Positions 12,470 to 39,711 of a DNA stretch of 64,000 nt are shown here, piece after piece. The stretch comes from Gammaproteobacteria bacterium. GTDB taxonomy: Bacteria; Pseudomonadota; Gammaproteobacteria; Pseudomonadales; Pseudohongiellaceae. Below the pieces are notes generated by a model. The model saw only the letters and a list, made by a program, of their open reading frames with translations. It ran no database searches and had not been told where the DNA came from. The DNA lies in the NCBI GenBank assembly GCA_030654835.1, contig JAURWS010000060.1:62001-126000 (forward strand). The letters are read 5' to 3'. Numbering within the stretch: the first letter of the stretch is position 1; every line of letters starts with the position of its first letter. A program made the translations under genes and the position numbers.

Positions 12470-13150
12470 TCAGAGCAGGCTGGGCCTCGGATTGAAATAA
12501 TGGGTGCCCCGGGGCACGGTCAGTATGTGATTGACGAGTTGCTGATAATCGTCTTGATTATCCACAAGGTCAATCTCCGCGCTGTTGACGATCAGCAGCG
12601 CGCTCTTGTCGTAGTAGTGAAAAAAGCTGGTGTAGGCGTCGTTCAGCCGCTCCAGATACTCGCGTTGAATCTGTCTCTCGGCGGCGATGCCACGCTTGTG
12701 GATGCGATGCAGCAGCACCTCCGCAGGTGCTTGCAGGTAGATCACCAGGTCGGGAGTCGGGGCGTCGATGGTGAGGTGTTCGTAGACCTGCTGATACAGT
12801 GTGTATTCGTCCTGGTCGAGGTTTTGCCGGGCGAATAGTTGATCCTTGTCGATCAGGAAATCGGCCACGCGCACGGGCTCGAAGAGATCGTCCTGACGCA
12901 GGTCTTGAATCTGGCGTGTACGCTGGAACAGGAAGAACAACTGAGTTGCGAGTGCGCCCTGGCGGGGATTGTCATAAAAGCGTTCGAGAAAAGGGTTCTC
13001 CTCGGGCTTTTCGAGCAGGATATCGTAATTGAAAGTCTCTGCCAGGCGTCGTGCGAGGCTGGTCTTGCCCACGCCAATCGGGCCCTCCACTGCGATGAAG
13101 CGGGGCTGCTTCCTGCCGAATGCAGAGCCTGTTGTAGGGCTGTCTGTCAC
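12470..13150 (-). CDS. Deoxynucleoside kinase family protein
   Basis: 226 residues. P-loop GPIGVGKTSLARRLA near residue 20, LLEKPEENPFLERFYDNP, and a LID-type region RGIAAERQIQREYLERL mark the deoxyguanosine/deoxyadenosine kinase family, which phosphorylates salvaged deoxynucleosides. Its ATG overlaps the pcnB stop by four bases, so translation is probably coupled. In Pseudomonas the slot after pcnB is held by folK; no folK is seen here. Substrate specificity cannot be read from sequence. Confidence 0.85.
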   Translation of the reverse strand: MTDSPTTGSAFGRKQPRFIAVEGPIGVGKTSLARRLAETFNYDILLEKPEENPFLERFYDNPRQGALATQLFFLFQRTRQIQDLRQDDLFEPVRVADFLIDKDQLFARQNLDQDEYTLYQQVYEHLTIDAPTPDLVIYLQAPAEVLLHRIHKRGIAAERQIQREYLERLNDAYTSFFHYYDKSALLIVNSAEIDLVDNQDDYQQLVNHILTVPRGTHYFNPRPSLL

Positions 13151-14670
13151 GCGCTATCACCTGCTCCACTGGTCGGCTTTCGTGAAGGTTTGCGTCGACG
13201 ACGACGCGGTCCTGTGCTGCCCTTGCCGAGTTCTTCCTGCATGAGGTCCTGCTGAATCTTGTCGCTATCCTGGAAGTCTGTCCACCATTGACCGAGTCCA
13301 GCCAGATCTTCCCCGGCGTCTTCGCGCAGCAGCAGGAAATCGTATCCTGCCCGGAATTTTGGATGCTGGTAGGCCGATTCGGCACCGCGCTTGCTGCGCA
13401 CGGCGAAGCGTAATTGCAGTTCCCAGATCTCGCGCATGGCGATAGAGAAGCGTTTGGGAATGGAGGTGACCTGCAGTTGTCGACCGATGACCTTGTTGGC
13501 AGCATCCTGTTGGGCCAACAGTGTCACAGGTTTGTCTCCCAGTACCCGCTCCAGTTCATGCAAGAGCGCTGGCCACAGCAGGGCAGCGAAGAGGAACGCA
13601 GGTGTTACAGACTTGCCGTCTGCCAGGCGGCTATCGGTGTTGCGCATGGCCAACACCACCAGACGGCTGGCAGGCGCTTCGGGGTCGCGGGTGCATGCCA
13701 TGGTGCCAGGGAACATGAAATCGCCAACCTTGAACTGGTGCAACAGGGAGTACGTCTTCTCCGCATGCCCCCCGGTCAGCAGCTTGACGCTCTCGTCGAA
13801 CAGGCGTGCAGGTGAGATGGATTCGAGCAGGTAGGCGAGCTCATTGATCGGTGCTCGCGTCTTCTTTTCGATCTCGAAGTCGAGCTTGGCGGCGAAGCGC
13901 AGCGCACGCAGCAGACGTACGGGGTCCTCACGATAGCGGGTGGCCGGATCGCCGATCATGCGCAGCAGGCGCTTCTCGATGTCCTCCAGGCCGCTGGCGA
14001 AGTCGATGATGCGGAAGCCGTCGGTCGTGTAATAAAGCGCATTGGCGGTAAAGTCGCGACGCAAGGCATCCTCGTTGATGCTGCCATAGACGTTGTCCCG
14101 CAGAATCATGCCCGAACTTGAGTGGGCGGAGTCCAGTCCCTTGATTGCCCGGTGTGAGGTGTCATCCTGGAATTCGTTCTCAGCTTCATGGTGGGCGCGG
14201 AAAGTTGTCGCTTCAATGATTTCTCGGCCGTAGCGCAGATGCACGATCTTGAAGCGCCTGCCAATGATCATGGCGTTGCGGAACAGCTCGCGGATTTGCT
14301 CCGGGGTCGCGCTGGTCGCGATATCGAAGTCCTTTGGCGTGTCGCTCAGCAGCAGGTCGCGCACACCACCGCCGACCAGAAAGGCGTGGTAACCGGCATC
14401 GTTCAGGCGGTACAAGACCTTGAGTGCGTTTGGTGAGATGCTTTTGCGGGAGATACAGTGGTCTTCGCGTTCAATAACACGGGCGCGGGAGAGATCGAGA
14501 TCGCTGAGGCTGGCTCTGCCGGAGGCGGGAGCTTGGCGACTTGCGTTGTCTGGCCTGTCGCCTCGGGGACGTTGAATTTCCGGCAACTCGTCAACGCTGT
14601 TTTTTGGTTTGGCGCGCTTGCCGAAAAGAACTCTGGTTAACTTTCTCAACATCAGTTTTTCAGGACCCAT
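13147..14670 (-). CDS. pcnB: Poly(A) polymerase I
   Basis: 507 residues. Adds poly(A) tails to RNA 3' ends and so promotes decay. Class II nucleotidyltransferase motifs: FLVGGGVRDLLL, KDFDIATSA (catalytic aspartates) and RRDFTANALYY. The basic C-terminal tail (GPRRRRRKPSRKPTS) fits RNA binding. Two starts are possible, ATG 14670 or ATG 14652 (MLRKLTRVLFGKR, the family-like N-terminus); neither has a strong ribosome-binding site. The gene follows cbrB and the CrcZ-like RNA, the same order as in Pseudomonas. Confidence 0.94.
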   Translation of the reverse strand: MGPEKLMLRKLTRVLFGKRAKPKNSVDELPEIQRPRGDRPDNASRQAPASGRASLSDLDLSRARVIEREDHCISRKSISPNALKVLYRLNDAGYHAFLVGGGVRDLLLSDTPKDFDIATSATPEQIRELFRNAMIIGRRFKIVHLRYGREIIEATTFRAHHEAENEFQDDTSHRAIKGLDSAHSSSGMILRDNVYGSINEDALRRDFTANALYYTTDGFRIIDFASGLEDIEKRLLRMIGDPATRYREDPVRLLRALRFAAKLDFEIEKKTRAPINELAYLLESISPARLFDESVKLLTGGHAEKTYSLLHQFKVGDFMFPGTMACTRDPEAPASRLVVLAMRNTDSRLADGKSVTPAFLFAALLWPALLHELERVLGDKPVTLLAQQDAANKVIGRQLQVTSIPKRFSIAMREIWELQLRFAVRSKRGAESAYQHPKFRAGYDFLLLREDAGEDLAGLGQWWTDFQDSDKIQQDLMQEELGKGSTGPRRRRRKPSRKPTSGAGDSA

Positions 14671-14804
14671 TTACCGGTACGACTCGGTCATGGTGGAAAT
14701 CACCAGAGCAGGATACGCGGATAAAATCTGTGATTCTCATCGAAGGGGGAAGCGAATGGGCCGGGATAATACACTGAAATGGTGGAAAGTAGCAGAAGGA
14801 AATG

Positions 14805-15050
14805 CTCTGGGGGGCGAGTAACACCCCCCCGCAAGGAAGGTAATTTAGTTTTGTTATTTTTATTGTACTAATGAGGCACCAAATACAGCACCGCAAAGCA
14901 TTTTATGAAACAGTATCTTCAGCCAGACAACAACTACGCCATCACTAAAAACCGAAAATCCACTTCTTGTTGTTTTTATTCACTGCACCAAATTGAGCAT
15001 GCAATTTTTATTATTATTGGCTTTCGTTGTTATTATTTATTGTTATTGTC
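14805..15050 (-). ncRNA. crcZ: CrcZ-like regulatory RNA (Hfq/Crc decoy candidate)
   Basis: The 645-base gap between cbrB and pcnB is very AT-rich and has no gene. Read on the minus strand it carries many AAYAAYAA motifs: a cluster at 15027-15047, then at 15008-15018, 14967-14974 and 14851-14858. In Pseudomonas such CA motifs make CrcZ sequester Hfq/Crc, and crcZ sits at exactly this place, transcribed from a CbrB-dependent sigma54 promoter. A near-consensus sigma54 promoter is at 15061-15076, giving a predicted 5' end near 15050. The 3' end is uncertain: a G7/C6 hairpin at about 14809-14830 lacks a clear U tract, and read-through into pcnB is possible. Identity is inferred from position, promoter and motifs. 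Confidence 0.72.
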
Positions 15051-15060
15051 GCGTATATAG

Positions 15061-15076
15061 AGCACTAACCGTGCCA
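15061..15076 (-). promoter_or_regulatory. Sigma54 promoter of the CrcZ-like RNA
   Basis: On the minus strand TGGCACGGTTAGTGCT matches the sigma54 consensus; GG and GC are exactly 10 bases apart. It directs transcription away from cbrB toward pcnB. Confidence 0.8.
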
Positions 15077-15149
15077 GATAGTTAAAGTTGAATAAATACA
15101 ATTAGTTAAGTTTTTTGTGGCGATTAATTTACTGCTTAAACTGGTACTG

Positions 15150-15205
15150 TGTTACCGAACGTCTCTGATTCGTTGTGTAGATGGGTATCAGTAACAAATT
15201 GTTGC
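15150..15205. promoter_or_regulatory. Candidate CbrB upstream activation sites
   Basis: TGTTAC at 15150-15155, GTAACA at 15191-15196 and TGTTGC at 15200-15205 lie 75-130 bases upstream of the sigma54 promoter. From memory, CbrB sites in Pseudomonas are TGTTAC/GTAACA inverted repeats; spacing here is not the canonical one. Confidence 0.45.
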
Positions 15206-15315
15206 ATGACACTGACATTGTGTAATTAGGGTGCATTGCGCAGGTGGTGGGGGGGATTTTTGGTGCACTATTGGAGGATTCTGAAGGACTGTGGTCCGAG
15301 ACCTCCAAGCCTGAA

Positions 15316-16701
15316 TCAGGCCTGCTTCTTCTTTCTTGGCAGCCCGAAGCGCTGTCGTCTTTCCCACAGACATTTGCGGCTGATGCCAAGTTTTCTAGCC
15401 AGCTGCGTCTCGTTCATCTGATCCTGATGCTCCAGCACGAAGCGCTGGAAATAGTCCTCCAGAGACAATTCCTCGACCGCCTCGTCGTGGCTCAGAGAAC
15501 TCGGAGCGGGGTGGCGTTCACCGAGCGAGCGTGGTGCCATCTTGGCTCCGGATTCGATGGCCAGCAGTTCCGCACCAATATACTCTGACTCGGCCAGCAC
15601 GACGGCCCTCTCGATGGCATTCTCCAGCTCCCTGACATTGCCCGGCCACGAGTAGGTGGCGATGGTCTGGGTAGCCTCGGGGCTGAACTTGAGCATCGGG
15701 GATTTCAGGCGCTTGCAGGTGCGCTCGAGAATGGCATCTGCCAGTTCCAGAATATCATTACCGCGCTCCTTGAGCGGGGGTATGACCAGCGTCATCACGT
15801 TGATTCGATAGTAGAGGTCTTCACGGAAGTCGCCGTCGATCACCAGTTGCTTGAGATCACGGTGGGTTGCCACTACCAGGCGCACATCGACCTTCTTGGA
15901 TTGAACTGAGCCAACCTTGCGAATCTCGTTTTCCTGCAGTACGCGCAACAGGCGAGCCTGAGCTTCCAGCGGCAACTCGCCGATCTCGTCGAGAAACAGT
16001 GTGCTGCCACTCGCGGCCTCTACCAGTCCGGTGCGGTTGGCGGTGGCGCCGGTAAACGCACCCTTCTCATGCCCGAACAATTCAGATTCGATAAGGTTCT
16101 CGGGAATGGCGGCACAGTTCACGGAAATCATCTCGGCGTCCTTGCGGTCACTGAGCTTGTGGATGGCGCGCGCCACCAACTCCTTGCCAGTGCCGGATTC
16201 GCCATTGATGAGAACAGTGGAATTGGTCTGAGCAACTTTGCGGATGCGGCGGAACAGCTCCATCATCTGAGGGCAGCTGCCGATCATTCCATAGACCGGC
16301 GGTTCGGGCGGTGGCACGGGCTTCTCGGCGACCACTTTCCTGTTGGCGCTTTCCTTGATGATGCGGGCAACGGTTTCGAGCATCTCTTCGTGTTCGAAAG
16401 GTTTGGAAATGTAGTCGACGGCGCCCATTTTCATGGAATCGATGGCGGAGCGCAGGCTGGAATAGCTGGTCATGATCAGCACCGGGGTCTTGGTGCTCTT
16501 GATGAGATCGGTGCCAGGGGCTCCAGGAAGACGCAGGTCGCTGACGATGATGTCGAAGCCGTCCAGTTTGTGTTGCTCGACGGCGTCTTTTACGCTGCCC
16601 GCTTCCTCAACCAGATAGTTGTGTCTCTCCAGCAATCGGCGCAGGGCAGTGCGAATAACCTGCTCATCTTCAACAACCAATACTTTGCTCTGTGCTGCCA
16701 T
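15316..16701 (-). CDS. cbrB: CbrB-like sigma54 response regulator
   Basis: 461 residues from the ATG at 16701; an upstream in-frame TTG at 16713 has no ribosome-binding site. Receiver domain with KVLVVEDEQ and the phosphorylation site in DIIVSDLRLPG (Asp55), AAA+ domain with [14 protein letters not shown] and LFLDEIGE, and a Fis helix-turn-helix ending ETQLARKLGISRKCLWERRQ. With CbrA upstream it forms the carbon/nitrogen-balance two-component system; in Pseudomonas it activates crcZ. The match of neighbours on both sides (cbrA, pcnB) makes CbrB far more likely than NtrC. Confidence 0.88.
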   Translation of the reverse strand: MAAQSKVLVVEDEQVIRTALRRLLERHNYLVEEAGSVKDAVEQHKLDGFDIIVSDLRLPGAPGTDLIKSTKTPVLIMTSYSSLRSAIDSMKMGAVDYISKPFEHEEMLETVARIIKESANRKVVAEKPVPPPEPPVYGMIGSCPQMMELFRRIRKVAQTNSTVLINGESGTGKELVARAIHKLSDRKDAEMISVNCAAIPENLIESELFGHEKGAFTGATANRTGLVEAASGSTLFLDEIGELPLEAQARLLRVLQENEIRKVGSVQSKKVDVRLVVATHRDLKQLVIDGDFREDLYYRINVMTLVIPPLKERGNDILELADAILERTCKRLKSPMLKFSPEATQTIATYSWPGNVRELENAIERAVVLAESEYIGAELLAIESGAKMAPRSLGERHPAPSSLSHDEAVEELSLEDYFQRFVLEHQDQMNETQLARKLGISRKCLWERRQRFGLPRKKKQA

Positions 16702-16761
16702 CTTCTTACTCAAAAAGTGCTAACAAAACCAACAGGCTAAACTAACGGACTGGCAATTTGA

Positions 16762-19707
16762 TCAGAGTGCATGTGGAGATGCCCCGGCTGCAGAGGCCGA
16801 GCCATCATAACAGGGAAAGGTCAGAATTACCCGTGTCCCGGGATTCTCCCTGCGCAGCGATGCGTTGATTATATCAATATGTCCATCGAGGTTTTCAACG
16901 ATGCTGTAGACCAGTGACAGGCCCAGTCCCGTGCCTTCGCCTGGCTCCTTGGTGGTGAAGAATGGCTCGAATATCCTGTCGCGCACTTCTTCGGGAATGC
17001 CTGTGCCTTCATCGGTCACAGAAATCTGCACGGAACCTGAAACCAGTTTGCTGGCAATAGTGATGGTACTGCCGGCCAGGCTGGCGTCGTGGGCGTTGTT
17101 GATGAGATTGATCATGACCTGCAGGAGTCTCTGGGAGTCCCCCAGTATCTGCAGCCCCGGTCGGCAATTGACGACGTAATGGATGTCCTTGCGTTTCTTG
17201 TCGAGAGAAATGAGTGTGATCGCCTCTTTGGCGCATTCTTCCACCGTCACCACTTCAGAATTGTGGTCTAGTTTGTTGGCGCCGCTGTGAGCAAAATTCA
17301 CCAGTGACTGCACAATGCGTGAGGTGCGATCCGTTTGCTCGATGATCTGTCTGGCCATGGAGCGCAACTCATCGTTGTCGGTTTCATCGCGTATGTTCTG
17401 TGCCAGGCAGGCGATGCCGGTGATGGGGTTGCCGATCTCGTGGGCGACGCCTGCAGCGAGTCGGCCGATGGAGGCAAGTCGTTCGCTGTGGGTCAACTCT
17501 TCTTCCAGTAGTTCGGTTTCGGTCAGGTCTTCCAAGAGAATCACGACGCCGTCTTGTTTGATCTTGTGGGTCGCCGACTTCTCGATAATGGCCTTGTGCA
17601 GGCTGATGAAGCGACGGCTGTTTTTCACCTGCACGACGCGTTTGTGAGCATGTGCCGCGTCTCCCACTGTGAAGTCGTGGATCAAGGATGCCCACGGTTC
17701 GCCAATGTCGCTCAGCTGGGCGCCGAGCACCGACTGCCCGGGTGTGCCTGTCAATTTCTCCATGGTGTGGTTCCACATCACGATCTGATTCTGTTCGCCG
17801 AGCGAGCAGACACCCAATGGCAACTCCAGCAATACCTGGCGGTGATAGCGGCGCAGATTGTCGAGATCTTCCGCCATCCCCGATAGATTGCTGCGATAGG
17901 CTTCGATGCGGCTTTCGATAACGTCGACATCCGTTGAGTCGGCCGCAGATTCGATGGTGTAAGGCAGGAAGCGATCGATTAGATCGTGGGCAATAGAGGG
18001 GCCCAACAGTCCCGAGAGGTTTGCTTCGAGCCTGCCGCGCAACAGGCGCATTGCATGCGGGCTCTTTTCCTGTTGATCGATCTTGAGGTCGCGCAAGGCT
18101 TGCAACACCTCGCGAGTAGCCGTGCGTTCGCCCAGTGGTTTGGTGAGCTTGGCGATGAATTCGTCAGGGCTGCGGGCGACCAGTCCAGTGCGGTTGCGAC
18201 GACGAATGGTGTCCAGCGCGCAGATATCCGCCGACGCCCGTTCCTCTGCTGAGGTATGTGTCCAAATAGAGGTCATCACGAATATCAGGATGTTGCAGAC
18301 GAGGGAAATGGCGATGATTTCCCGTGAGCTGAGATTGGTGAATTCAAGTAGATCGACTCCTGTCACGACGGGCAACATCAGGAACAACAGCCAGATCGCC
18401 ACTCCCGTAAAGAGCCCGGCCATGTAGCCGTTCTTGTTGCCGCGTGGCCAGTACAGCAGGGCGACGATACTGGGCAGGAACTGCAGGCTGGCGATATAGG
18501 ACACGTTGCCGATGGCTCGGACGCTGAGCTTGTCGTCGGGGATGTAATAGAACAGGAAGCCGATCCAGATCAGTGCCGCAATCAGTATTCTGCGTTTCCA
18601 CAGCAGCCAGCGGTAAATGTCGTTGCGTGCCGTGGGCTGGTAGACCGGCAGAATCAAATGGTTCAGGCACATGTTGGAGAGTGCGAGGGTGATGACAATT
18701 ATCAGCCCGCTGGCGGCCGACAGCCCACCGAGGAAACCTATCATCGTGATCAGCGGTGAGCCGTAATCCGCGCCAATCGTCACAGGATAGAAATCCAGCG
18801 GGGCGGTGGAACCTGCCTTGAGCCCAGCCCAGAGAATAGGCATCACCGGGAGGCTGAGCAGCAGGAAGTAGAGCGGCAGCGCCCAGCTGGCCATGGTCAG
18901 CGCTTTGGGGTCGTTGTTCTCGTTGAAGATCATGTAGAACATGTGAGGGGAGGCGACCGCTGCGGTAAAAAACAGGATTACCGTCACGTGGAAGCTGCCA
19001 GCGGTGGAGGTGTCCTTGATGCTGCTCAAGAGTTCGGGCTGCGCCTGCAGCCACTGATCGACCCCCGCGACGCTGCCGAACCCCTGATAAATAGCGAAAC
19101 CGCCCACCGTAAGCATGGCCAGCAGTTTCACGACGGACTCGAAGGCAATTGCCATTACCAGGCCCTCGTGCTTCTCGCGGCCAGCACCACGGCCGGTGCC
19201 GAAGAAGATGGCGAACAAGGTGATCAGTAAACAGAATGTGACGGCAAGGGTAGTCTGTGACGCTTCGGGCGCGAGAATTGCCACGCTGCTGGCAACTGCC
19301 TGAATCTGCAGCGATAACAGTGGCGTGACCCCCATCAGCATGACGATTGTGGTCAGCGTGCCAGCCAGCGGGCTGCGATAGCGGAAAGCCAGCAGGTCTG
19401 CCAGGGAGCTGAGCTGATAGCTCTTGGTGATGTCCAGAATGGGGCGCAGCATGACGGGCGAGAAAAGGAATGCCAGCGAGATACCTATGAAGGGCGCCAG
19501 ATAGCCGAAGCCGTCGCGAAAGGCGCTGCCCGTCACGGCATAGTAGGACCAGACGCTGGCGAACACCCCTAGTGACAGGACATAAACGATGGGATGGTGG
19601 GTAATCCTCTGCGGAATCCAGCCTTTGTCAGTAGCCAGAGCGATGCCGAACAGCAGCATTAGGTAGCAGATGCCCAGAATAAACAGCGTGCTCAGGTCAA
19701 AGATCAT
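16762..19707 (-). CDS. cbrA: CbrA-like sensor kinase with SLC5 transporter domain
   Basis: 981 residues from the ATG at 19707, close to Pseudomonas CbrA. About the first 500 residues form a sodium:solute symporter-type domain with some 13 membrane segments, starting [21 protein letters not shown] linker and PAS-like segment follow ([16 protein letters not shown]), then the HisKA helix with [12 protein letters not shown] (phospho-histidine) and the ATPase domain: [34 protein letters not shown]. The upstream ATG at 19746 is rejected because 19707 overlaps the cbrX stop, as in Pseudomonas. It phosphorylates CbrB; the transporter part may handle histidine or sense flux (family knowledge). Confidence 0.9.
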
Positions 19708-19873
19708 CGGAGTTTTGTTCCCGATGGCTGAAGGCGGCCAGTGCAATCACGAGCAGTCCAATGATGAAGGGGCGATACCAGGCGCCGTCTGGCTCTGCCA
19801 GCCAGTCCACGCTCGTCAGAAAGAGCAGGTAACTGAACAGCATCAGCAGCAATGTGGCTCGTGTGATGTACAA
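19697..19873 (-). CDS. cbrX: CbrX-like small membrane protein
   Basis: 58 residues from a TTG at 19873 with a GAGAG ribosome-binding site; an ATG-only start at 19843 would give 48 residues. Two hydrophobic segments: LLLMLFSYLLFLTSV and FIIGLLVIALAAF, split by a charged turn (EPDGAWYRP). Its TGA lies inside the first codons of cbrA, so the two genes are probably translationally coupled. A small gene in the same place in Pseudomonas, cbrX, controls cbrA translation (recalled). The frame also stays open into the end of gluQ. Too short for usual gene callers. Confidence 0.7.
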   Translation of the reverse strand: MYITRATLLLMLFSYLLFLTSVDWLAEPDGAWYRPFIIGLLVIALAAFSHREQNSDDL

Positions 19874-32677: not shown

Positions 32678-34360
32678 CTACACGTGCTCTCCCGGCAGGC
32701 GGATGTTTCTGACGATCTCCTGCACCTCGAATGGTGGTTCGACGGTGAAGCGGCAGACCACCAGTGCGACCACGAGATTGAGAAGTGTGCCCAGTGTCCC
32801 GATCCCTTCGGGGGAGATACCGAACCACCAGTGTTCGGCGGTGCTCATCGTGGGATTGATGAACTTGAAGTAGATGATGTAGGCCGCCGTGAAGGTAAAT
32901 CCAGAGACCATCCCGGCCACAGCTCCGTGCTTGTTCATCCTGCTGTAGAAGATACCCAGTACGATGGCCGGGAAGAACGAGGCGGCTGCCAGCCCGAAGG
33001 CGAAGGCGACCACTTCGGCCACGAAGCCGGGCGGATTGATGCCGAAATACCCCGCGATCAGTACTGCAAAGAAGATCGCAATGCGTGCGTAATTCAACTC
33101 CTCCTTCTCAGTAGTGTGGGGCCGCAGGCAGCGCTTGATCAAGTCGTGGGAGATTGACGTCGATATCACCAGCAGCAGTCCTGATGCGGTGGAGAGTGCC
33201 GCCGCGAGTGCGCCCGCCGCTACCAGTGCCGCGACCCAGTTCGGCAGTTGAGCAATCTCCGGATTTGCCAGCACCATGATGTCCCGGTTGACGGTCAACT
33301 CATTTACTGCAGCATTTCCCACATACTGAATCCGTCCGTCGTCATTTTTGTCATTGAAGGTAATCAGGCCCGTGCGTTCCCAGGTCGAGAACCACGAGGG
33401 CATGGTGCTGTATTCGGCATTGTTCACCGTGTCCAGCAGATTAGTCTTGGAAAATGCTGCCAGCGCTGGCGCGGTTGTATACAGCAGCGCGATGAACAGC
33501 AGCGCATAACCCGCAGACTTGCGCGCATCGCGTACTGACGGCACAGTGAAGAAGCGAATGATCACATGCGGTAGTCCGGCGGTGCCAAACATCAGCGCGG
33601 CGGTGATGAAGAAGACGTCCTGTGTGCTCTTCTGCCCTTCGGTATAGGTGCCGAATCCCAACTCTCTGGACAGGCCATCCAGGCGGTCCAGCAGATAGCC
33701 GCCACCGTATTCAGGAGTCAGTTCTGAGCCAAAGCCCAATTGTGGAATCGGATTGCCGGTCATCATCAGCGACAGGAATATCGCCGGGACCATATATGCA
33801 AAAATCAGTACGCAGTACTGGGCGACCTGCGTATAAGTGATGCCTTTCATGCCGCCGAGCACCGCATAACAGAATACGATCGCCATCCCGATGACGACAC
33901 CGGTCGTGATGTCGACCTCCAGAAAGCGCGAGAAAACGATTCCGGCGCCCTGCATTTGACCACAGACATACACGAATGAAATCACGATGGCGCAGAATAT
34001 TGCCGTCAGCCGCGCGCTCTGAGAATAATAACGGTCGCCGATGAAGGCCGGCACGGTGAACTTGCCGAACTTGCGCAGGTAGGGTGCCAGCAGTAATGCC
34101 AGCAATACATAGCCGCCGGTCCAGCCCATCAGGTAATAAGCGCCGTCCCGCCCCAGAAAGGAAATCAAACCTGCCATCGAAATAAAGGATGCAGCCGACA
34201 TCCAGTCGGCAGCCGTCGCCATGCCATTCGTCAGGGGGTGGATACCACCACCGGCGACATAGAAATCATGTGTGGAACCGGCCTTTGACCATATGGCGAT
34301 CAGGACGTAGAGTCCGAAAGACAGGAAGATAAATAGGTAAGTCCAGATCTGCACACTCAT
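32678..34360 (-). CDS. Sodium:solute symporter, acetate (ActP/VC_2705) type
   Basis: 560 residues with about 13 membrane segments, SLC5/SSS family. Typical motifs: TAADWMSAASFISMAGL near the start, GTAGLPHVIIRFFTVP in the middle and the AFAFGLAAASFFPAIVLGIF helix. It overlaps the small DUF4212 protein by four bases, the arrangement of VC_2705-type acetate or monocarboxylate symporters. With acs in the same window, acetate uptake is the best guess; pyruvate or propionate remain possible. Confidence 0.88.
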   Translation of the reverse strand: MSVQIWTYLFIFLSFGLYVLIAIWSKAGSTHDFYVAGGGIHPLTNGMATAADWMSAASFISMAGLISFLGRDGAYYLMGWTGGYVLLALLLAPYLRKFGKFTVPAFIGDRYYSQSARLTAIFCAIVISFVYVCGQMQGAGIVFSRFLEVDITTGVVIGMAIVFCYAVLGGMKGITYTQVAQYCVLIFAYMVPAIFLSLMMTGNPIPQLGFGSELTPEYGGGYLLDRLDGLSRELGFGTYTEGQKSTQDVFFITAALMFGTAGLPHVIIRFFTVPSVRDARKSAGYALLFIALLYTTAPALAAFSKTNLLDTVNNAEYSTMPSWFSTWERTGLITFNDKNDDGRIQYVGNAAVNELTVNRDIMVLANPEIAQLPNWVAALVAAGALAAALSTASGLLLVISTSISHDLIKRCLRPHTTEKEELNYARIAIFFAVLIAGYFGINPPGFVAEVVAFAFGLAAASFFPAIVLGIFYSRMNKHGAVAGMVSGFTFTAAYIIYFKFINPTMSTAEHWWFGISPEGIGTLGTLLNLVVALVVCRFTVEPPFEVQEIVRNIRLPGEHV

Positions 34361-34674
34361 GGTTTGATCTCCGTGTCGACATTCGCGGAGTGAGTAACAT
34401 GTGGCTTGTCAGCCGTCTCGATCTGATCGAGCTTGTACTGATGATCCAGCCTGTCCATGAGCCGGATGTAGACAAATATCAGGACCACAAAGCCATAGAT
34501 CGACCCTTGCTGGGCCATCCAGAAGCCGAGCTTGAAGCCGCCGAGTCGAAAGTTGTCGAGAAAATCCGCCAGCAAGATGCCGCAGACAAAGGAGATGAAG
34601 AACCAGATACACAACAGAATGAGCACTATTCTGATGTTGGCTTTCCAGTACGAGCGCGCATTTCTATCGGACAT
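34357..34674 (-). CDS. DUF4212 small subunit of a sodium:solute symporter
   Basis: 105 residues with two membrane helices: IRIVLILLCIWFFISFVCGILL and IYGFVVLIFVYIRLMDRL. DUF4212 proteins always precede VC_2705-type symporters, as here, with an ATGA overlap. AGAGG lies just upstream of the ATG, and an A-rich CA motif lies 25-37 bases upstream of it, a possible Hfq/Crc repression site. Confidence 0.88.
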   Translation of the reverse strand: MSDRNARSYWKANIRIVLILLCIWFFISFVCGILLADFLDNFRLGGFKLGFWMAQQGSIYGFVVLIFVYIRLMDRLDHQYKLDQIETADKPHVTHSANVDTEIKP

Positions 34675-34698: not shown

Positions 34699-34711
34699 TT
34701 TTGTTGTTTTT
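34699..34711 (-). promoter_or_regulatory. CA motif (possible Hfq/Crc site) in the symporter leader
   Basis: On the minus strand the leader reads AAAACAACAAAA about 13 bases upstream of the ribosome-binding site. It fits AAYAAYAA-type sites that Hfq/Crc use for catabolite repression in Pseudomonas. The CrcZ-like RNA in this window carries the same motif. Confidence 0.5.
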
Positions 34712-38169: not shown

Positions 38170-39711
38170 TCAAATCAGCTTCTTGCGCTCATTGGACGGT
38201 GGAATGGACAGTGATTCCCGATACTTGGCAATGGTACGCCGTGCGACATTGATGCCCTGTGCTTCGAGGAGCTTGGTAATTTTGCTGTCACTGAGGGGTT
38301 TGCGGGCATTCTCGGCAGCCACCAGCTTCTTGATCAGCGCCCGGATTGCCGTGGAAGAACATTCACCGCCACCTGCCGTGCTGACGTGGCTGGAGAAGAA
38401 GTATTTCAACTCGAAGATGCCCTTCGGTGTATGCATGTACTTCTGGGTGGTTACGCGCGAGATAGTGGATTCATGCATGTTCACTGCCTCGGCAATGTCA
38501 TGCAGAACCAGCGGTTTCATGGCCTCTTCCCCATATTCGAAGAATCCCTTCTGGTGCTCTACGATGCGGGTGGCGACCTTCATGAGTGTTTCGTTGCGGC
38601 TCTGCAGGCTCTTGATGAACCAGCGTGCCTCCTGCAGGTTGTCGCGCAGGTAATTGTTGTCGTTGCTGCTGTCGGCGCGGCGGACCAGGGAAGCGTAATC
38701 GGGATTGATGCGAATCTTCGGTGCTGTGTCTGGATTTAGCTCCACGAGCCAGCGCCCGGTGTCAGAATCCTTGGAGACGATGACGTCCGGCACGATGTAG
38801 GTCGTTGAAGGCGGTGCGATGTCCGAGCCCGGACGTGGATTGAGCCCTTCAATGATGGCGATGGCATCCCGCAATTCCGGTTCCTTCAGGCGGGTCAGGC
38901 GCATCAGCTGTGCATAGTCTCTATTACCCAGCAGCTGCAGATGATCCTTGACGATAATCTTGGCGTGGTGGATGGCCGGTGTGACCTCGTGGTCGGTGAA
39001 TTGCTGCAACTGGATCAGCAGGCACTCTGCGAGATCGCGGTAGCCCACTCCGACGGGATCGAACTGTTGAATGCGGTGCAGGACGGCAACGACTTCTTCG
39101 GGATCGATGTCCAGCGAACGGATCAGGCTGGCGTGGATGGAGTCTATCGTGGAGGTCAACATGCCGTTGGCGTCGATGGCGTCAATGATGGCGAGTCCGA
39201 TCAGGCGATCGGGGTCTGACATGGGAGTCAGATTCAACTGCCACATCAGGTGGTCCTGCAGAGTCTCGGTGGCACTGTTGCGTGATTCGAAGTCGAGTCC
39301 ATCGCCTTCGCTCGAACCATTACTGCTGGAGGTGTAGCTGCTCTGATAGACGTCTTCCCAGCTGGTATCCACGGACAATTCTTCGGGGATGTGGTCTTCC
39401 CAGCGGTTTTCGTCCTGATCCTGAAGTTGCTGGTTGTCGCTCTTTTCGTAACTCTCGGTGTTCAGGACCCTATCGGCACTGAATTCGTCACTGGAGACAT
39501 TGCTCTCGCTGTTCTGTTCCGTCCCGGCATCGGACTTCGCATGAAACTCATCAGTGCCCTCATCAAGCTCGAGCATTGGGTTGGATTCCAGTGCCTGGTG
39601 AATTTCCTGCTGCAAATCAAGAGTGGAGAGCTGAAGTAGGCGAATCGCTTGCTGCAGCTGTGGTGTCATGGTCAGCGTTTGACCCAACTTGAGCTGGAGC
39701 GACATTTTCAT
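38170..39711 (-). CDS. rpoN: RNA polymerase sigma-54 factor
   Basis: 513 residues. Region I starts [33 protein letters not shown], then an acidic region II, the core-binding part, the helix-turn-helix and the RpoN box [12 protein letters not shown] near the C-terminus. It is the sigma factor read by the FisR-like and CbrB activators of this window and by the two -24/-12 promoters found. A hairpin at 39827-39846 separates it from lptB, so it may have its own promoter. Confidence 0.97.

Follow-up and report, generated by a model that had tools for sequence, protein, structure and literature searches.

In Pseudomonas, a decoy RNA soaks up Hfq and switches on the use of poorer foods, with Crc as the usual partner protein. 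The question raised by the locus considered here is whether an RNA of this kind, CrcZ, is also encoded in a lineage outside Pseudomonadaceae, in the gap between cbrB and pcnB of a 64-kb stretch of DNA, hereafter called the window. In the passages of a review and a paper that deal with the matter, the CbrAB system is called exclusive to Pseudomonadaceae (PMC8871633, PMC6296734), whereas in the present work CbrB relatives were found at E ≤ 1e-110 in 248 of 293 genomes of the order. No title among the open-licence literature matches listed reports CrcZ outside Pseudomonadaceae. A preliminary description of the window had proposed a CrcZ-type RNA gene at the crcZ position, driven from a CbrB/sigma54 promoter, in a lineage outside that family, and this proposal is supported by the sequence.

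Gene organization of the locus

The minus strand of the window carries, in this order, cbrA, cbrB, the gap and pcnB. The cbrA gene (16762–19746) codes for a protein of 994 aa in which a transporter-like N-terminal part is fused to a PAS/histidine kinase with HisKA, HATPase and PAS matches. Because no Pfam match to SLC5 was obtained for CbrA, its SLC5 part was assigned from the alignment with relatives and the literature description; with this assignment an SLC5-kinase CbrA adjoins an NtrC-type CbrB, as in known CbrAB systems. CbrB (15316–16713, minus strand, 465 aa) is an NtrC-type sigma54 activator containing Response_reg and Sigma54_activat domains. Relatives of CbrA detected by tblastn share 38–49% identity and lie upstream of cbrB in all 20 sampled families, the copy in family f7 being in two pieces, and the window CbrA aligns with the CbrA of family f19 at 49% over residues 16–982. 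Family f19 was taken to be Pseudomonadaceae because its Crc is 86–91% identical to P. aeruginosa Crc, and the window lineage falls outside it. Gene order, regulator domains and promoter sites are all shared by the window with CbrAB.

The gap between the cbrB stop codon and the pcnB ATG spans 15315–14671, that is 645 bases with a GC content of 0.42, and is as long and as AT-rich as first described. It is followed by pcnB (13147–14670, minus strand), coding for poly(A) polymerase (TIGR01942, 486.5 bits). The DNA-binding domain of sigma54 itself (rpoN, PF04552, 239 bits) is encoded in the same window, also on the minus strand, at 38179–38655 (contig positions 100179–100655). Thirteen records with CbrA at 81–98% identity are metagenome assemblies, and the isolate names Loclat and ErkenSummer suggest a lake habitat for related lineages. 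One of them, locus L196, is titled as a Klebsiella pneumoniae MAG but bears the cbrA-cbrB-pcnB of this uncultured lineage and looks like a mislabelled bin.

Promoter and upstream sites

An exact sigma54 -24/-12 element, CTGGCACG-GTTA-GTGC, occupies 15062–15077 on the minus strand, which bears out the promoter noted in the preliminary description. Its core, TGGCACG-N5-TGC (15076–15062), is the sole exact match in 64 kb. When one mismatch is allowed, the window holds eight sigma54-like sites where 8.9 would be expected, so that hexamers of this kind carry no significance by themselves; it is the exact copy together with its context that counts.

Two exact CbrB half-sites, which had been announced for the region 75–130 bases upstream, were found on the minus strand: TGTTAC, or F1 (15191–15196), 119 bases upstream of the promoter element, and GTAACA (15150–15155), 78 bases upstream of it. 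The CbrB consensus given in the relevant passage of PMC8871633 is TGTTAC-N12-14-GTAACA-N15-19-GTAACA; the distance from F1 to GTAACA in the window is 35 bases (14+6+15), which places GTAACA at the R2 position, with a degenerate R1 in between. Most loci of the window family have F1 118–120 bases upstream of the promoter element, and in this family the exact pair consists of F1 and a site at 78–80 (R2); in three f19 loci it consists of F1 at 123–124 and R1 at 101–103. These two forms are bridged by loci L062 (121/100/78) and L076 (120/99/77), since both carry all three half-sites. Between the half-sites and the promoter there is an IHF-like site, YAA-N4-TTG (15096–15108, minus strand), named after its resemblance to the IHF consensus. 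It is found at this place in 12 of the 14 rows of an alignment of gaps from the genus (absent in L007 and L011), the full YAAN4TTGATW being present in two of the 14.

The predicted RNA

Transcription from this promoter would start at about 15050, 12 nt after the -12 element, and give an RNA of about 275 nt directed toward pcnB (14774–15050, minus strand), the 3′ end of which is a guess because a scan found no terminator-like site on this strand. Nor was any sigma70 promoter for pcnB found by a scan. The window contains 19 copies of the motif AAYAAYAA where 3.1 would be expected, and none of 100 shuffles reached that number; eight of the 19 copies lie on the minus strand at 14851–15047, just downstream of the promoter. 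They form four A-rich clusters of the Hfq (CA) type, clusters 1 and 2 within 15008–15047 (15047–15027 and 15018–15008), cluster 3 at 14967–14974 and cluster 4 at 14851–14858, and the intervals given in the preliminary description proved correct.

The predicted RNA is closed by a hairpin, UGC-G7...C6-AGA-GCA (14803–14833, minus strand), which is preceded by the conserved TACCTTCCT and is near-invariant in 28 aligned RNAs. The 3′ end as a whole at 14842–14800 (minus strand), consisting of TACCTTCCTTGC, the G7 hairpin and AGAGCATTTC, is near-invariant across these 28 RNAs of the family, in contrast to their drifting middle part, and TACCTTCCTTGCGGGGGGG is identical in all 28. The C/U-rich 3′ stretch could pair with Shine-Dalgarno sequences. 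The 3′ block was not found in six family loci (L032, L033, L078, L079, L084, L090), and a seventh locus without it in the alignment, L012, is cut by the contig end. RNAalifold applied to the 28 members gave a small GCAU...GUGC hairpin between clusters and the 3′ hairpin, with both-sided changes in four of 16 pairs, all at the inner ends of helices, so the covariation support is modest. Between the hairpin and pcnB, TTCAGTGTATTAT at 14785–14760 (minus strand) is conserved in two genera and is perhaps an extended -10 of pcnB. RNAs from five other families (L044, L054, L060, L061, L073) have a different closing motif near AGACCTGGRTGGGGAAG together with a hairpin, and such AGACCTGGRTGGGGAAG-type RNAs perhaps represent a second structural class.

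Relationship to CrcZ and similar decoys

The Rfam model of CrcZ (RF01675) matches 15049–14774 on the minus strand over model positions 1–398 with 24.6 bits and E = 1.7e-4 in a search of 801 bases, and the match begins one base from the start predicted from the promoter. It is also the single match in a search of the whole genome (E = 1.9e-4). The gathering score of the family is 95 bits, and nothing in the window reaches the gathering score of any Rfam family. The covariance-model check proposed in the preliminary description thus gave a full-length alignment but a score well short of the cut-off; its expectation that homology searches would probably miss the RNA proved half right, since the Rfam model does find it, but the match falls far below the cut-off and the window genome was missed under the stricter filters used for the many-genome search. 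By place, promoter and architecture the predicted window RNA is regarded as a CrcZ homologue, though not as a member by Rfam's rule.

Among the 293 genomes of the order, the RF01675 cut-off was passed in 14 (12 of f19 and two of f2), and a match at E ≤ 0.01 was present in 66, a number of them directly behind cbrB. The best scores are 305–368 bits in f19, 103–111 in f2, 66–73 in f32 and 33–55 in f18, and genus g6 of the window family reaches 35–41, with the 24.6 bits of the window at the lower end. This graded series, combined with a shared location and a promoter of one type, argues for common descent and not for convergence.

CsrB/RsmZ sponges bind CsrA at GGA hairpins; they share the decoy logic and the repeated protein sites with the window RNA, which instead carries presumed single-stranded A-rich sites for Hfq. 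CrcY and CrcX, further copies in Pseudomonas, are likewise CbrB/sigma54-driven Hfq decoys, but the window genome has one RF01675 match only, while some other families have gaps with two promoters. Two sigma54 elements per gap were seen in L039, L045 (three in this case), L060, L070, L071, L075, L076 and L215, and these gaps apparently hold tandem CrcZ-type RNAs. With Pseudomonas CrcZ the window locus has in common the position between cbrB and pcnB in the same direction, the upstream CbrB half-sites, the sigma54 promoter, multiple A-rich Hfq motifs on the transcribed strand from the first bases on, the closing GC hairpin and an alignment to the whole model. It differs from Pseudomonas CrcZ in its low Rfam score, in the predicted length of about 275 nt against 407 nt for CrcZ, which is presented as a separate RNA in the relevant part of PMC4063720, in the degenerate R1 half-site and in belonging to a genome without detectable Crc.

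Conservation and spread

The region behind cbrB was examined in 90 loci (L005–L094), namely the 30 top-scoring loci of the family search, that of the window among them, and a further 60 of the family and the order, picked from the CbrB matches listed. In 84 of them pcnB was found downstream; L012, L041, L042, L057, L058 and L077 were dropped, with L012 and L057 ending at or near a contig end and L041 and L042 both belonging to f7. With a promoter called at a minimum of 10 of 13 sigma54 consensus positions, 77 of the 84 cbrB-pcnB gaps contain one, compared to 65 of 1640 shuffled gaps. The seven gaps without it are L040, L046, L066, L081, L083, L093 and L094, of which L046 has a 9/13 site accompanied by an A-rich array.

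Within 300 nt downstream of the promoter in the 77 loci, which are related so that the counts are not independent trials, AAYAAYAA occurs 487 times against 15.8 in dinucleotide shuffles, and the reverse-strand motif four times. Taken singly, 71 of the 77 loci exceed their own shuffles at the 5% level (the others being L035, L039, L043, L049, L070 and L075). In the 200 bases upstream, TGTTAC and then GTAACA are present in 65 of these 77 related loci against 0.08 expected from mononucleotide shuffles, with the first half-site in most loci at 118–126 and the second at 76–80 or 99–103 bases upstream of the promoter element. The 13 other loci of the same genus (L006–L018) keep the promoter, the half-sites and the A-rich clusters. 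In the alignment of the 14 gaps of the genus, the first 100–200 bases after cbrB drift, and then TGTTAC-(T/C)G(A/C)TAC...GGTAACACAGTACCA or a close variant, the IHF-like core, the promoter, the clusters and the hairpin are kept, with variable spacers between them. In two family members, L081 and L093, cbrB and pcnB are kept but the gap has disappeared together with the RNA, leaving 66 bases in the one and an overlap in the other.

The order CbrA-CbrB-gap-pcnB is kept among relatives. The cbrB-pcnB gap is present in 26 of the 28 families sampled, among which 25 have the promoter, 23 at least two AAYAAYAA motifs and 21 the half-site pair; in f7 and f25 cbrB was not seen to be followed by pcnB, the f25 sequence reaching a contig end. 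The same gap architecture is found in loci named Pseudomonas and Halopseudomonas (L202, L204–L209). Since the promoter and the array are this widespread and the RF01675 cut-off is passed in so few genomes, annotation based on that cut-off would miss most of these RNAs. A decoy circuit treated as a Pseudomonadaceae speciality in the published passages cited above appears here, by its DNA, to be present in many sampled families. The RNA is not universal, since seven of the 84 gaps have no promoter, f7 has no adjoining pcnB and in Alcanivorax, where the gap is present, a promoter match was found in none of four loci. The CrcZ Rfam matches of f7 genomes such as G142, G277, G296 and G315 are located apart from cbrB, and in this family (L041, L042) the RNA may have moved elsewhere.

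A class-wide sample of 142 genomes contained 18 with CbrB matches, 16 of them outside the order. Behind cbrB in these 16 loci no pcnB was found, and no A-rich array accompanied by a promoter either, with the L179 sequence ending about 740 bases beyond cbrB; the same applies to L175, the one other order member among the loci read. As CbrB-like proteins outside the order come without the RNA elements, the regulator is wider in distribution than the RNA, which in the cbrB-pcnB place appears confined to the order on this sample. Some of the CbrB relatives in the order, such as those of f24 (1e-114 to 1e-124), may be paralogues.

Hfq and Crc

The genes hfq (PF17209, NCBIfam), rpoN, cbrA and cbrB are all present in the genome. 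Hfq has Y25, K31, Q33, Q52 and T61, and S at position 28, where the P. aeruginosa and E. coli proteins carry N. Crc was not detected in the genome, a 60-contig draft rated 100% complete, either by a PF03372 search or with a Crc query. Only two PF03372 (EEP) proteins are encoded, ExoIII (TIGR00633, 315 bits) and a YbhP-like one, so a hidden Crc was rejected. The Crc query finds just ExoIII, at 31% identity and with the active-site E, D, N and DH kept, all of which Crc has lost; a catalytically degenerate ExoIII relative, which is what Crc is, was not found in this genome. A check of the crc and hfq genes had been named beforehand as decisive against the preliminary reading if the pair was absent: hfq was found and crc was not, and the titration originally ascribed to Hfq and Crc jointly can be kept for Hfq only.

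Crc was likewise not detected in three sister genomes. Five members of the genus were tested, four of which have only the 31%-type ExoIII and the fifth, G036, an intact enzyme at 44%. Matches of 42–48% in other genera of the family (L115–L121, seven read) keep the catalytic motifs and for that reason were counted as probable active enzymes, not as Crc. When the best Crc matches of 20 genomes were read by eye for four short motifs, 12 had degenerate, Crc-like sites (f24, f14, f18, f5, f35 twice, f34, f32, f6, f36, f9, f39) and eight had intact active sites (f21, f43, f38, f8, f11, f23, f26, f20). Degenerate active sites were also read in seven f7 and f2 loci. As for genomes that bear the RNA, the single Crc match of G158 (L056) at E ≤ 1e-35 has its motifs intact, G304 (L059) does not figure in the Crc matches listed, and G004 and G048 (L078, L082) have a match of 29–30% only. 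The RNA and Crc thus appear to be separable. Such genomes part the two partners naturally, which makes the contribution of Crc directly testable.

In the sections of PMC4063720 that concern amiE, P. aeruginosa Hfq is described as binding the A-rich site of this mRNA by its distal face and as being titrated by CrcZ. In E. coli, Hfq was both required and enough for the repression of amiE, while full repression in vivo needed Crc too (PMC4063720, same sections). Since Hfq itself binds the A-rich site and suffices for repression in E. coli, a decoy without Crc is mechanistically sound. An Hfq-only version is plausible, perhaps with weaker repression.

Proposed circuit and alternative explanations

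What is established here comprises the DNA elements with their conservation and strand bias, the homology to CrcZ, the presence of cbrA, cbrB, rpoN and hfq and the lack of a detectable Crc. The gap very probably encodes a homologue of CrcZ, driven by CbrB and sigma54, which would titrate Hfq on its own, without Crc. On the model of the Pseudomonas system, a poor carbon supply would lead CbrA to phosphorylate CbrB, which would bind TGTTAC...GTAACA with IHF bending the DNA, and the sigma54 polymerase would then make the RNA of about 275 nt. Its single-stranded AAYAAYAA clusters would occupy the distal face of Hfq and draw it off mRNAs for uptake and catabolism at their A-rich ribosome-binding sites, so that these mRNAs could be translated; in the window genome the titration step would run without Crc.

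The same elements would be expected if CbrB and sigma54 drove transcription into pcnB and the A-rich part were an Hfq-bound 5′ leader of its mRNA and not a free small RNA, as might be suspected from pcnB being next in the same direction, from the terminator scan and from a gap of just 230 bases in L055. We consider such a leader improbable, as the closing hairpin, near-invariant in sequence in 28 relatives, ends the predicted RNA about 130 nt before pcnB, the gap length among promoter-bearing loci varies from 230 to 1865 bases, and CrcZ of Pseudomonas is a separate transcript of 407 nt according to the part of PMC4063720 cited above. Even less credence is given to an RNA acting mainly by base pairing, with the invariant TACCTTCCTTGC and the 3′ hairpin as a seed and the A-rich parts merely recruiting Hfq: the identity of TACCTTCCTTGCGGGGGGG in every aligned family member despite a variable middle fits it, but several A-rich clusters, in 23 families, seem to exceed the need for recruitment, and the 3′ block was not found in six family loci.

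That the gap is simply A-rich, low-complexity DNA with chance motifs is hardly conceivable. It is indeed AT-rich, and sigma54-like sites with one mismatch occur at chance frequency in the window, but the motif count after the promoter is 487 to 15.8, with four copies of the reverse-strand motif, and the half-site pairs stand at 65 of 77 to 0.08; on the shuffle counts and the strand bias, chance AT-richness was rejected. Returning to the Hfq decoy, a broader reading is about as likely as not. In it CbrAB-CrcZ-Hfq would be the old carbon-control core of the whole order, existing before or without Crc; some families would have added Crc by recruiting an active enzyme of the ExoIII type, and the window lineage would be Hfq-only.

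Candidate targets

Possible targets were sought among predicted genes from about 460 kb, including the window. AAYAAYAA is present at five of 347 start sites, against 0, 0, 0 and 1 in four other intervals around the same genes. In a slightly different gene set it is present at six of 367, which makes it the top one of 28 motifs of the same composition (the others 0–5, the next being 5). As evidence for targets this excess is weak and no more than suggestive. The six start sites include those of a solute-binding-like protein (judged by eye) and of the small subunit of a symporter in the window. The candidate mRNA site of the latter, AACAACAA (34701–34708, minus strand), lies ahead of the Shine-Dalgarno sequence of an operon (32678–34674, minus strand) coding for the small and large (VC_2705 family) subunits of a sodium/substrate symporter (TIGR03647, TIGR03648). 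The window acs has no such A-rich motif at its start. In 28 genomes searched, 25 of 27 copies of the symporter gene, the window copy included, have AANAANAA within -45 to +9 of the start, and 13 of the 27, again with the window copy, have AAYAAYAA in that interval, mostly beside GAGG and with different surrounding letters. In L223, an A-rich stretch immediately precedes the start of a gene at 14065 on the minus strand that by eye resembles the one for polynucleotide phosphorylase.
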